Shown here piece after piece: positions 975-4,696 of a DNA stretch of 64,000 nucleotides. The translations under genes and the position numbers were made by a program. The DNA comes from Calditerrivibrio nitroreducens DSM 19672 (GTDB lineage: Bacteria; Chrysiogenota; Deferribacteres; Deferribacterales; Calditerrivibrionaceae): NCBI RefSeq assembly GCF_000183405.1, contig NC_014758.1, forward strand, positions 1,240,001 to 1,304,000, written 5' to 3'. Position 1 is the stretch's first letter; the number at the start of each line of letters is the position of its first letter. The notes below the pieces were generated by a model. It ran no database searches. It saw only the letters and a list, made by a program, of their open reading frames with translations, and was not told where the DNA came from.

Positions 975-2090
975 TTAACAAACCCTCCCACCACGTTCAC
1001 CGTAATTCTTCTCAATCCATTTAAGATACTCTCCAGACCTGATATGATCCACCCATTTTCTATTATCCAGATACCACTTTACAGTCTTACGGAGACCTTC
1101 TTCGAATGAGACTGATTGCTTCCAGCCAAGTTCATGTTTTATCTTTGTGCAATCTATAGCATATCTCCTATCATGACCGGGTCGATCTTTTACAAATGTA
1201 ATAAGCTCTTTTAGCTTTTCCTGTGGTTTACCTGTTTCCTCCGATACTATCTGAATCAGGTACTCAAGTAGTCTTATATTCTCCCACTCATTTTCCCCAC
1301 CGATATTATACTTTTCGCCCACTTTACCATATCTAATCACCTGCCACACCGCAACGTTGTGATCCTCTACATAAAGCCAATCTCTGATATTTTTACCATC
1401 ACCGTACACAGGCAATGGTTTATCTTCTATCATATTTAAGATCATAAGGGGGATAAACTTTTCCGGAAATTGGTATGGGCCGTAATTATTTGAACAATTC
1501 GTCAAAGTCACAGGTAAACCATAGGTATGATGGTATGCCATTACAAGATGGTCGCTACCTGCTTTGCTGGCTGAATATGGGGATCTCGGATCGTAGGGGG
1601 TATTTTCTGTAAAGTACCCTGTATCCCCAAGGCTACCGTAAACCTCATCTGTGGAAATATGATGGAATAAGACCGGAGCATCAGACAATGTGCCATAAAT
1701 CTCCTGCCAATATTTCCTTGCCACATCAAGCAGGGTATAAGTACCAAGAACATTGGTGGTAATAAACGCCTCCGGTCCAAGAATTGATCTATCCACATGA
1801 CTTTCCGCAGCAAAATGGATCACACAGTCCACGTTATAATTTTTAAAAATATTTTCTATAGCAGATCTATCTCTGATATCAGCTTTCACAAATTTATATC
1901 TGGGATTTGAACCTCCACCAAAGCTTTTTTCTACATCTATTAAGCTTTCCAGATTACCTGCATACGTTAATAAATCTACATTTATTACAACACCTTTGAA
2001 ACCTGATTCTTCGGACAAAAGGTATCTAATCATATTGGATCCTATAAAACCAGCTCCACCGGTAATAAGAATTGTATTGAAATTTCTCAT
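975..2090 (-). CDS. rfbB: dTDP-glucose 4,6-dehydratase RfbB/RmlB
   Basis: Second step of dTDP-L-rhamnose synthesis, converting dTDP-glucose to dTDP-4-keto-6-deoxyglucose in the cytoplasm with bound NAD. The 371-residue protein is an extended short-chain dehydrogenase: GGAGFIG dinucleotide motif at residues 11-17, catalytic STDEVYG around 146-152, and YSASK (Tyr172, Lys176). I start at ATG 2088-2090 (MRNFNTILITGG) rather than a longer frame beginning at 2123. That start has a GGGG 8 bases upstream, leaves a 4-base gap to rfbD and aligns with the family N-terminus. It is the last rml gene of the rfbA-C-D-B cluster. Confidence 0.95.
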   Translation of the reverse strand: MRNFNTILITGGAGFIGSNMIRYLLSEESGFKGVVINVDLLTYAGNLESLIDVEKSFGGGSNPRYKFVKADIRDRSAIENIFKNYNVDCVIHFAAESHVDRSILGPEAFITTNVLGTYTLLDVARKYWQEIYGTLSDAPVLFHHISTDEVYGSLGDTGYFTENTPYDPRSPYSASKAGSDHLVMAYHHTYGLPVTLTNCSNNYGPYQFPEKFIPLMILNMIEDKPLPVYGDGKNIRDWLYVEDHNVAVWQVIRYGKVGEKYNIGGENEWENIRLLEYLIQIVSEETGKPQEKLKELITFVKDRPGHDRRYAIDCTKIKHELGWKQSVSFEEGLRKTVKWYLDNRKWVDHIRSGEYLKWIEKNYGERGGRVC

Positions 2091-2094
2091 AACT

Positions 2095-2991
2095 TTAACC
2101 CCTGTATTTATGTGATATACCACTGATAAAACTTCTCAAACTATCTTTCCAAAAAGGGACTTCAACTCCCAACCTTTTGATTTTCTCCTTAGATAAAACT
2201 GAATATTTAGGACGCATGGCCTTTGTGGGGTAATCTTCAGTTTTGATGGGCTTTATATTGCAATCCTCTTTTAAAATCTCATACTCTCTACCAAGTCTGT
2301 AAATCTCAACAGCAAAATCATACCAGGAGATCTCCCCTTCATTCGAATAGTGGTAAATACCAAAAGACAGTTTATTTTTTGATAAATTTATCATTTGTAA
2401 AATAGCTCTTGCAAGATCGTACGTCCACGTGGGGCTTCCATACTGGTCTGAAACTACCGCTATCTCTTTTTTCTCCCTCATAAGTCTAAACATAGTATAT
2501 ACAAAATTATTACCATGCTCCCCATAAAGCCATGAAGTCCGTATGATAATGCTCTCTGGAACTATTGATAAAAGACGCTTTTCCCCCTCAAGCTTACTCT
2601 TACCATAAATCGAAGTGGGAGAAGTAGGATCATCTTCCAGATAAGGACGGGGTTTCCCATTTTCTATTATAGATTCTCCCGAAAAAACATAGTCGGTGGA
2701 TATATGGATGACAGTGGCACCAATCTGCTTTGCCACCTTTGCAATATTTTCCACTCCATCTGCATTTATAGTAGTACATAAATCCACTTCATCCTCTGCT
2801 TTGTCCACAGCTGTGTAGGCAGCACAGTTTACAATGAATTTGATAGATCTATCTCTTACAAATTGACCCAAAGATTCATAGTCAGTAATAGAAATCTCTT
2901 TATCAGTAGCGATAAAAGGTACCGAATTTGATTTAAGGATTTCCGAAAGCTCTGTGCCAAGCATCCCCCTGGCTCCGATAATCCATATCAC
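2095..2991 (-). CDS. rfbD: dTDP-4-dehydrorhamnose reductase RfbD/RmlD
   Basis: Final step of dTDP-L-rhamnose synthesis, the NAD(P)H-dependent reduction of dTDP-4-dehydrorhamnose. The 298-residue product has the nucleotide motif GARGMLG at residues 6-12, the family motif STDYVFSG and the YGKSK catalytic pair. Length is normal for the family. It overlaps rfbC by 4 bases (2988-2991) and ends 4 bases before rfbB, so translation is probably coupled. Confidence 0.95.
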   Translation of the reverse strand: MIWIIGARGMLGTELSEILKSNSVPFIATDKEISITDYESLGQFVRDRSIKFIVNCAAYTAVDKAEDEVDLCTTINADGVENIAKVAKQIGATVIHISTDYVFSGESIIENGKPRPYLEDDPTSPTSIYGKSKLEGEKRLLSIVPESIIIRTSWLYGEHGNNFVYTMFRLMREKKEIAVVSDQYGSPTWTYDLARAILQMINLSKNKLSFGIYHYSNEGEISWYDFAVEIYRLGREYEILKEDCNIKPIKTEDYPTKAMRPKYSVLSKEKIKRLGVEVPFWKDSLRSFISGISHKYRG

Positions 2992-3545
2992 AGTATATCC
3001 CCTTCAATATCTTTTAAATATGGTAATTGCATATCCTTTTGGGATATTATGTATGGAATACCAAGTTCAGGCCATTTTACACCAATAATCGGATCATTCC
3101 ATCGTATCCCACCATCTGATGGGGCATGATATTCTGCCGTGCATTTATATAAAAGCTCAGTGTCATCCTCAAGGGCAAGAAAACCGTGGGCAAAACCTGC
3201 CGGAATCCATAACATGAGATTATTTTCGCCAGACAATTCCAATGCATACCATTTACCAAAGGTGGGTGATCCTTTCCGGATATCTACGGCGACATCCCAA
3301 GCAGCTCCACGAGTAACCCTCACAAGCTTCCCCTGAGCATGAGGCTGTTTTTGAAAATGCAGTCCCCTTATCGTCCCTTTTTTTGATTTTGAATGGTTAT
3401 CCTGAACAAATCGATCTGATATACCCAGAGACTTAAAATCGCTCTCTTTATAAGTTTCCATAAAAAAGCCCCTATCATCCCTAAACATCTGGGGCTTAAT
3501 AACTAAAAGACCATCAATTGGCGAATCAATTACTGTAAAAGGCAT
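2988..3545 (-). CDS. rfbC: dTDP-4-dehydrorhamnose 3,5-epimerase RfbC/RmlC
   Basis: Third step of dTDP-rhamnose synthesis, double epimerisation of dTDP-4-keto-6-deoxyglucose. The 185-residue cupin shows the hallmark GTIRGLHFQ (Arg60, catalytic His63) and IPAGFAHGFL around 114-123. Full length for the family. It sits one base after rfbA and overlaps rfbD by 4 bases, in the conserved order A-C-D-B. Confidence 0.95.
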   Translation of the reverse strand: MPFTVIDSPIDGLLVIKPQMFRDDRGFFMETYKESDFKSLGISDRFVQDNHSKSKKGTIRGLHFQKQPHAQGKLVRVTRGAAWDVAVDIRKGSPTFGKWYALELSGENNLMLWIPAGFAHGFLALEDDTELLYKCTAEYHAPSDGGIRWNDPIIGVKWPELGIPYIISQKDMQLPYLKDIEGDIL

Positions 3546-3546
3546 C

Positions 3547-4413
3547 TTATTCCCCCTCAGCTATAAAACGAAGGTATACACCATAATCTGTTTTAATACC
3601 ATTTGCAAGTTCAAGCAATTGAGATTTATCTATCCATCCATTTCTATAAGCTATCTCTTCGATGCAGGCCACATATAACCCCTGCCTTTTTTGAATCGCC
3701 TCCACAAAATTGGCTGCATCAAGTAGTCCATCGTATGTACCGGTATCAAACCATGCCATCCCTCTACCTAAAACCTCCACGTTTAGTGCACCCATCTTTA
3801 AATACTCATTGTTTACAGCAGTTATCTCAAGCTCACCTCTGGCGGAAGGTTTTATATTTTTTGCTATATCCACAACCCTGTTGTCGTAAAAATAAAGCCC
3901 CGGTACAGCGTAGTGGGATTTTGGATTTTGTGGTTTTTCTTCAATAGAAATGGCTTTGCCGTTAGCATCAAACTCAACAACACCGTAAGACTTTGGATCT
4001 TTTACCCAGTATCCAAAAATAGTGGCTGAAGAGCTACTCGATACAGCTTTTTGCAATATTTCTGTAAAATGCTGACCATAAAAGATATTATCACCCAATA
4101 CCATTGCCACCCTATCCTTACCTATAAAATCTTCCCCCACAATAAACGCATCCGCAAGACCTCTGGGTTTTTCCTGAATGGCATACTCAAACCTCATCCC
4201 CAGCCAATTACCATCCCCAAATAAATCTTTGAATACGCTTATATCTCTTGGTGTGGAGATAATAAGCACATCCCTGATCCCTGCAAGCATCAAAACGGAT
4301 AATGGGTAATAGATCATCGGTTTATCATAAACCGGAAGAATCTGCTTGGATATCGCTCTGGTGATTGGATAAAGTCTGGTGCCTGATCCACCCGCCAAAA
4401 TTATACCTTTCAT
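3547..4413 (-). CDS. rfbA: glucose-1-phosphate thymidylyltransferase RfbA/RmlA
   Basis: First and controlled step of dTDP-rhamnose synthesis: dTTP plus glucose 1-phosphate gives dTDP-glucose. The 288-residue protein starts [16 protein letters not shown], the nucleotidyltransferase signature, followed by [15 protein letters not shown] and VLGDNIFYG metal/nucleotide motifs. A clear GGAGG precedes ATG 4411-4413. It is the first gene of the rfb operon, and its leader contains an ops-like element and a tandem repeat array, described separately. Confidence 0.96.
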
Positions 4414-4428
4414 ATAACCTCCGAAAAA

Positions 4429-4566
4429 GTTGAAACGTTTAAACGTTTGAACGTTTGAACGTTGGAACGTTAGAACGTTGAAACGTTAGAAAGTTGGAAC
4501 GTTGGAACGTTAAAACGTTAAACATTGAACCTTGTACTTTGAACTTTGAACTTTGAACGTTGAACA
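4429..4566. repeat. degenerate 8-bp tandem array (GAACGTTN), shifting to a 7-bp register
   Basis: About ten consecutive 8-base units of the form RAACGTTN, each holding the palindrome AACGTT or a one-base variant, are followed by about four 7-base units of CTTTGAA type. The array starts only 8 bases before the rfbA Shine-Dalgarno and lies inside the presumed rfb leader transcript. No open frame crosses it convincingly. The function is unknown. Confidence 0.9.
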
Positions 4567-4571
4567 TTTTC

Positions 4572-4584
4572 CCACGCTACCGCC
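4572..4584 (-). promoter_or_regulatory. ops-like element (RfaH/NusG-paralogue recruitment site) in the rfb leader
   Basis: On the minus strand the sequence reads GGCGGTAGCGTGG. It contains the 8-base ops core GGCGGTAG exactly and matches the extended enterobacterial form GGCGGTAGCGTG. In E. coli this site pauses RNA polymerase and loads RfaH for antitermination of long polysaccharide operons. Here it falls about 75-90 bases after the predicted transcription start and upstream of rfbA, as expected for such a leader. No rfaH-like gene is in the window, so the recruiting factor is inferred. Confidence 0.7.
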
Positions 4585-4667
4585 GAAGGAACTCAATCCC
4601 CAAATTATAAAATCTCAAACATTCTAAATTCATTAAAACAAAAAAACGTACCTTCACTCAATTATCT

Positions 4668-4696
4668 TTTATAAACTATAACAAAATTACTTTCAA
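4668..4696 (-). promoter_or_regulatory. sigma-70-type promoter for the rfb operon
   Basis: On the minus strand: TTGAAA, a 17-base spacer, TATAAA. It lies about 255 bases before rfbA and leaves a long leader containing the ops-like element and the tandem array. The assignment rests on consensus match and position only. Confidence 0.5.

Follow-up and report, generated by a model that had tools for sequence, protein, structure and literature searches.

Specialised NusG paralogues that serve polysaccharide or antibiotic operons include UpxY in Bacteroides and LoaP in Bacillota. The UpxY and LoaP genes typically lie inside or beside their target operon, and we know of no use of ops by either. Escherichia coli RfaH is the product of an unlinked monocistronic gene and acts on several distant operons through a 12-nt ops core in O-antigen-type operon leaders. 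The xenogenes activated by RfaH are compositional outliers. An ops element is defined by its core and by a pause dinucleotide TG at positions 11-12, and RfaH reads the element through base-specific contacts by K10, H20, R23 and R73 (PMC5995543); the 3′ end of the paused RNA lies at U11 (PMC5995543, PMC11001881). A conserved stem-loop has been reported for the JUMPstart RNA (Weinberg et al., 2010, PMC2864571), which was described in gammaproteobacteria and is represented in Rfam as RF01707. According to Wang et al. (2020, PMC7593976), RfaH is mostly limited to Proteobacteria and ops recognition is thought to have arisen late.

The locus considered here lies in a stretch of 64,000 nucleotides (the window, at its full length) from Calditerrivibrio nitroreducens DSM 19672, which belongs to the Deferribacterota, a host phylum that the original prediction had considered. 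That prediction placed a perfect ops-type element on the minus strand at 4572-4584, before rfbA and 75-90 bases past a plausible promoter. An exact sequence search finds GGCGGTAGCGTGG without mismatch at precisely this position (4584-4572), and the surrounding features, all on the minus strand, are as follows.

975..2123 (-): rfbB, dTDP-glucose 4,6-dehydratase (PF16363, 6.5e-95)
2095..2991 (-): rfbD, dTDP-4-dehydrorhamnose reductase (PF04321, 8.3e-98)
2988..3545 (-): rfbC, dTDP-4-dehydrorhamnose 3,5-epimerase (PF00908, 1.1e-73)
3547..4413 (-): rfbA, glucose-1-phosphate thymidylyltransferase, first gene of the ops-led operon (PF00483, 2.5e-74)
4429..4569 (-): degenerate 7-8-nt AACGTTC-type tandem array, lying between ops and the rfbA ribosome-binding site (TRF)
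4572..4584 (-): ops element GGCGGTAGCGTGG, the 12-nt ops plus one G (exact match)
4585..4601 (-): upstream half GGGGATTGAGTTCCTTC, a short stem-loop with GGGGA/TCCTT arms, common to all five genomic sites
4668..4696 (-): likely sigma-70-type promoter TTGAAA-N17-TATAAA (found by eye; kept in the sister species)

By sequence and position this is an ops element. The core GGCGGTAGCGTG is identical at 12 of 12 positions (4584-4573), including the TG pause dinucleotide (positions 11-12), and it lies in correct orientation in a transcribed leader, with a promoter-like sequence upstream and a co-directional operon of ~14 kb downstream. From base composition, the expected number of copies of the 13-mer is 1e-4 for the window and 0.005 for the whole genome. 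The leader is a 324-nt intergenic gap between the manC stop (4738) and the rfbA start (4413), with 160 nt from ops to rfbA, and the rfb/O-antigen-type operon continues ~10 kb past the window through wzx, a wzy/EpsG-type polymerase, glycosyltransferases and a sugar transferase. From the end of the -10 hexamer to the first G of ops is 83 nt, within the predicted interval. A strict consensus promoter scan does not list this promoter (4696-4668) because the scanner's -10 pattern has to end in T; in a sister species (G006) the orthologous leader reads TTGAAA-N17-TATAAT. Promoter, stem-loop and ops are all retained in that leader, whose remainder has diverged.

Two other components of the leader were considered and dropped. 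The AACGTTC-type array is probably a dispensable spacer, since it is not conserved in the orthologous sister-species leader, and it was discarded as part of any mechanism for the same reason. Arrays of this AACGTTC/GTTCAA type, with 7-8-nt units, are found after or beside the ops leaders and glycan clusters of several Deferribacterota (window 4429-4569, minus strand; L009:3792-3999; L008:1269-1344; L109:8000-8110); none occurred in shuffled controls, and there was no conservation between sister species. A candidate promoter inside the element itself, TTGACTTCC...TAAATA as -35/-10, was rejected as its -10 is not kept among the sites.

The window site is one of five in the genome, two of them exact copies of GGCGGTAGCGTG and three of GGCGGTAGCCTG, all with GGGGANNGANTTCCNNCGGCGGTAGC[G/C]TG in common; the pattern GGCGGTAGC[GC]TG likewise occurs five times. 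From base composition, 0.15 occurrences of GGCGGTAGCNTG would be expected. The copies are alike over a 29-nt box, beyond which their flanks differ. Searched through the whole genome, the extended pattern GGGGANNGANTTCCNNCGGCGGTAGCNTG is found at these five places with 0 mismatches and at no others with 1-3 mismatches, the reversed control giving 0; about 1e-9 copies of the 29-nt element would be expected by chance. No site lies inside a long open frame. Four head surface-glycan operons and the fifth lies within a glycosylation locus:

C2:1244573 (window site): rfbACDB, wzx, EpsG-type polymerase, glycosyltransferases, sugar transferase; ~14 kb
C2:1229648: gmd/fcl
C2:1225042: rfbF/G and following genes
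C2:2032050: AAA-ATPase-like gene, gmd, fcl, then glycan genes
C2:753863: flanked by a Maf-type flagellin-glycosylation gene on one side and an IS256-like element plus DUF354 on the other

A genome-wide search proposed with the original prediction thus returned GGCGGTAGCNTG far above chance and with a strong bias to glycan-operon leaders. The 9-nt GGCGGTAGC alone is unusable as a query, with many background-level matches and recurrence in coding DNA; usable queries are GGCGGTAGCNTG combined with non-coding position, or the extended box. At C2:753863 (L010:8864-10200) an opposite-strand IS256-like transposase stands before DUF354, the next gene of glycan type, and may leave this copy disconnected and idle.

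As with the E. coli operons, the base composition of the ops-led clusters is foreign: the wzx/wzy stretches have 26-30% GC and the rfbF cluster has 50-58%, against a genome mean of 36%. Downstream of the third ops site, a block of glycan genes (L008:8001-18000, C2:1213000-1223000) has 45-58% GC, a strong sign of horizontal acquisition. In two families, small genes of the 23S rRNA-intervening-sequence/four-helix-bundle type are located between ops sites and gmd/fcl genes or directly after them (L009:415-846 and L009:2137-2514, both called from sequence only, and L049:1842-2111).

A second nusG-like gene, which the original prediction had suggested looking for, is present. C. nitroreducens has two NusG-family genes, the housekeeping nusG within the ribosomal-protein cluster and a gene for a 164-aa paralogue around C2:462.4-462.9 kb on the minus strand, adjoining lolA and a two-component pair. 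Like that of E. coli RfaH, the paralogue's gene is unlinked and monocistronic, with several distant operons as its candidate targets; UpxY and LoaP are likewise specialised for such operons, but the Calditerrivibrio gene stands 0.3-1.6 Mb from the sites and its product scores higher with RfaH. Its best relative in the PDB is E. coli RfaH (2.6e-15) and its top NCBIfam model is TIGR01955 (RfaH), ahead of UpxY, NusG and LoaP. Neither outcome named beforehand as telling against the prediction, a genome without any such paralogue or a motif at chance frequency without positional bias, was found.

The proposal that this organism uses an RfaH-like paralogue for its polysaccharide operon is supported, with the refinement that the protein falls below the TIGR01955 equivalog cut-off (107.7 vs 144.5 bits) and that several contacts are changed. 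At the positions of K10, H20, R23 and R73 it has K, L, E and Q (H20L, R23E, R73Q), with K10 and T72 kept. Judged by its sequence, the factor should be called RfaH-like and not a strict RfaH, because tests against the curated cut-off and the ops-reading residues found its score too low and three of the residues replaced. With H20, R23 and R73 replaced, recognition of ops must differ in detail; the paralogues of G009, G011 and G012, from the same phylum, keep all four residues. In free RfaH the KOW domain forms an autoinhibitory alpha-hairpin. AlphaFold2 (AF2) models a NusG-like beta-barrel KOW domain for the 93%-identical G006 protein, although the Pseudoalteromonas RfaH relative used as a control was also modelled as beta; best structural matches to the model include RfaH on the ops elongation complex.

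The distribution of the element follows that of the paralogue. Of the 51 Deferribacterota genomes compared, six (G000, G006, G009, G010, G011 and G012) have a second NusG that is RfaH-like, while G001 and G007 have other or partial NusG paralogues. Non-coding GGCGGTAGCNTG is found at 13 sites, exactly in the six paralogue-bearing genomes (6/6 vs 0/45 of the others; Fisher p = 6e-8 by genome, 9e-4 by genus), and all matches in other Deferribacterota lie inside open frames of at least 474 nt. The association extends over three families, with ops gone where the gene is absent: G008, a 99% complete genome of the same genus, has a single NusG and an rfbA gene with no ops at it. In G006, a full element (GGGGATTGATTTCCTTTGGCGGTAGCATG) is also present at L106:8704 on the minus strand, 95 nt upstream of a complete type I-B CRISPR-Cas operon of eight genes (L106:267-8609; cas8b/TM1802, cas7, cas5, cas3, cas6, cas1, cas2 and cas4, all except cas8b named from sequence and gene order).

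Outside the phylum, the proteins closest to the paralogue, with identities up to 45-50%, belong to Nitrospirota and to metagenome-assembled genomes (MAGs) titled Deltaproteobacteria, Syntrophorhabdus and Syntrophus. A scan of 21 such genomes gave 38 matches, most commonly GGCGGTAGCCTG; the reversed control gave 24, so some of the 38 are chance. Of the matches read, roughly two thirds are non-coding. Across all phyla, the first long downstream gene is glycan-type, by our own calls from Pfam and sequence, at 18/28 non-coding sites vs 1/23 coding matches (p = 6e-6); such genes include rfbA, manC, gmd, UDP-sugar dehydrogenase, asnB, epimerase, ABC-2 exporter and polysaccharide export genes. Since related pairs of paralogue and ops are present in Nitrospirota and 'Deltaproteobacteria' genomes, the system is not confined to Deferribacterota. 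Position 10 of ops is mostly C across all collected sites, unlike the G of E. coli, and the sister species' sites differ further from the E. coli set in including a cas operon.

Two arrangements were observed in a Nitrospirota MAG (G068). In L188, ops lies 54 nt before an RfaH-like open reading frame of the same clade (964-1458), which suggests that the gene is autoregulated or that an operon here begins with its own antiterminator. In L130:2998-3393 and L201, an RfaH-like gene breaks off after ...IKDGPFKD and continues directly as an ops element (MNGGSLSF*), with gmd next, as though recombination had brought an ops-led leader into the gene.

Upstream of ops, the RNA of the window site can fold as GGGGA-UUGAGU-UCCUU, a stem that is weak alone in Calditerrivibrio. 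It ends 3 nt upstream of ops, and its arms differ by lineage: GGGGA/UCCUU in Calditerrivibrio, CCAC/GUGG-type in G009 and G010, GCCA/UGGC in G011 and G012, and AGGUGCAUCG/CGAUGCACCU in one 'Deltaproteobacteria' MAG. With a 3-nt spacer, the 33 non-coding sites have a mean best-stem score of 8.2 vs 3.6 for dinucleotide shuffles (z = 6.3, 0/200 shuffles), as compared with 3.7 vs 3.3 (z = 0.5) for 26 coding matches. The 20 non-Deferribacterota sites taken alone (z = 3.9) are the cleaner test, since the spacer was first noticed in G009 and G010. The stem-loop is thus conserved by structure and spacing and not by sequence, and the conserved unit is longer than ops, with the stem-loop 3 nt upstream included. 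With the RNA 3′ end at U11, the base of the stem would sit 14 nt behind, at the mouth of the RNA exit channel.

The E. coli JUMPstart, confirmed in 5,395 of 5,426 genomes, also folds into a stem just before ops, and the JUMPstart RNA shares the order of a stem-loop and then GGCGGTAGCG in glycan-operon leaders. Its core arms are CUGG/CCAG, 2 nt from ops, whereas here they are unrelated and the spacing is 3 nt. The RF01707 model, which scores 61.1 bits on the E. coli control, matches none of 12 site-bearing loci even at E <= 10, and an Rfam scan for other known RNAs at the sites found nothing relevant.

Since the element extends beyond ops, with an upstream half conserved within the genus, the 29-nt box could be an RNA or DNA signal for something else, such as a pause or attenuator, a mobile-element repeat or the site of an RNA-binding antiterminator, the likeness of GGCGGTAGC to ops being convergent with the consensus pause. 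Ops-like sequences do fit the general consensus pause (PMC5995543), and five near-identical copies could be a repeat. These copies, however, are alike in the box and not in their flanks; from one family to another the upstream half changes wholly, yet GGCGGTAGC and the 3-nt spacing persist; and presence of the element follows the RfaH-like gene through three families. We consider this alternative unlikely.

Less probable still is that the locus, with JUMPstart and rfaH, was recently acquired from a gammaproteobacterium as an ordinary RfaH-ops pair. In its favour, the ops core is identical to that of E. coli, and glycan clusters, parts of which are GC outliers here, are subject to horizontal transfer. 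But the paralogue, only ~30% identical to E. coli RfaH, groups with the Nitrospirota and 'Deltaproteobacteria' proteins in one clade with the Deferribacterota (support 100/98), apart from E. coli RfaH; its top identities of 45-50% are to those same proteins; and the upstream arms are unlike JUMPstart, with RF01707 silent here. A chance match in a low-complexity leader, which could be argued from the mere 9 nt of GGCGGTAGC and its recurrence in coding DNA, is practically negligible given five exact 12-mers with identical extra upstream positions outside long open frames, where even the 12-mer is expected 0.15 times, and is refuted by the genome-wide search with the extended pattern.

We therefore regard it as highly probable that the window site is a working ops-type recruitment element for the RfaH-like paralogue, and the element very likely works with this factor as ops does with RfaH. 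On the model of E. coli RfaH biochemistry, from which pausing, binding, exclusion of NusG and antitermination at this leader are inferred, RNA polymerase would start ~80 nt upstream of ops, transcribe the short stem-loop and pause over GGCGGTAGCGTG. The exposed non-template strand would recruit the unlinked paralogue, which would displace NusG and suppress pausing and Rho-dependent polarity, allowing polymerase to complete the ~14-kb operon; the same paralogue would serve the four other leaders. Most speculatively, the stem-loop, freshly emerged at the pause, might limit backtracking or hold the pause for loading.

No report of ops outside Proteobacteria was found in the literature searched, and Deferribacterota may already be among the phyla with RfaH hits given in Figure 2B of Wang et al. 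(2020, PMC7593976). Only tentatively, and with some doubt, do we suggest a deep-branching RfaH-like clade of Deferribacterota, Nitrospirota and 'Deltaproteobacteria' that would use a two-part signal, a stem-loop at 3-nt spacing plus ops, in which Calditerrivibrio would read ops with different residues and the regulon of a sister species would include a CRISPR-Cas operon. Full transcription of long operons of the RfaH/ops type appears to reach well past the proteobacteria in which it was first worked out. That ops and the paralogue occur together in Deferribacterota, and that ops is again found with the paralogue's relatives in Nitrospirota and 'Deltaproteobacteria', makes the order of events in the proposed late origin testable. 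The clade supplies natural variants of the four ops-reading residues, and a heat-loving host offers structural studies a source of thermophilic proteins. Should the cas-operon site prove real, antitermination of the RfaH type would reach into defence as well.
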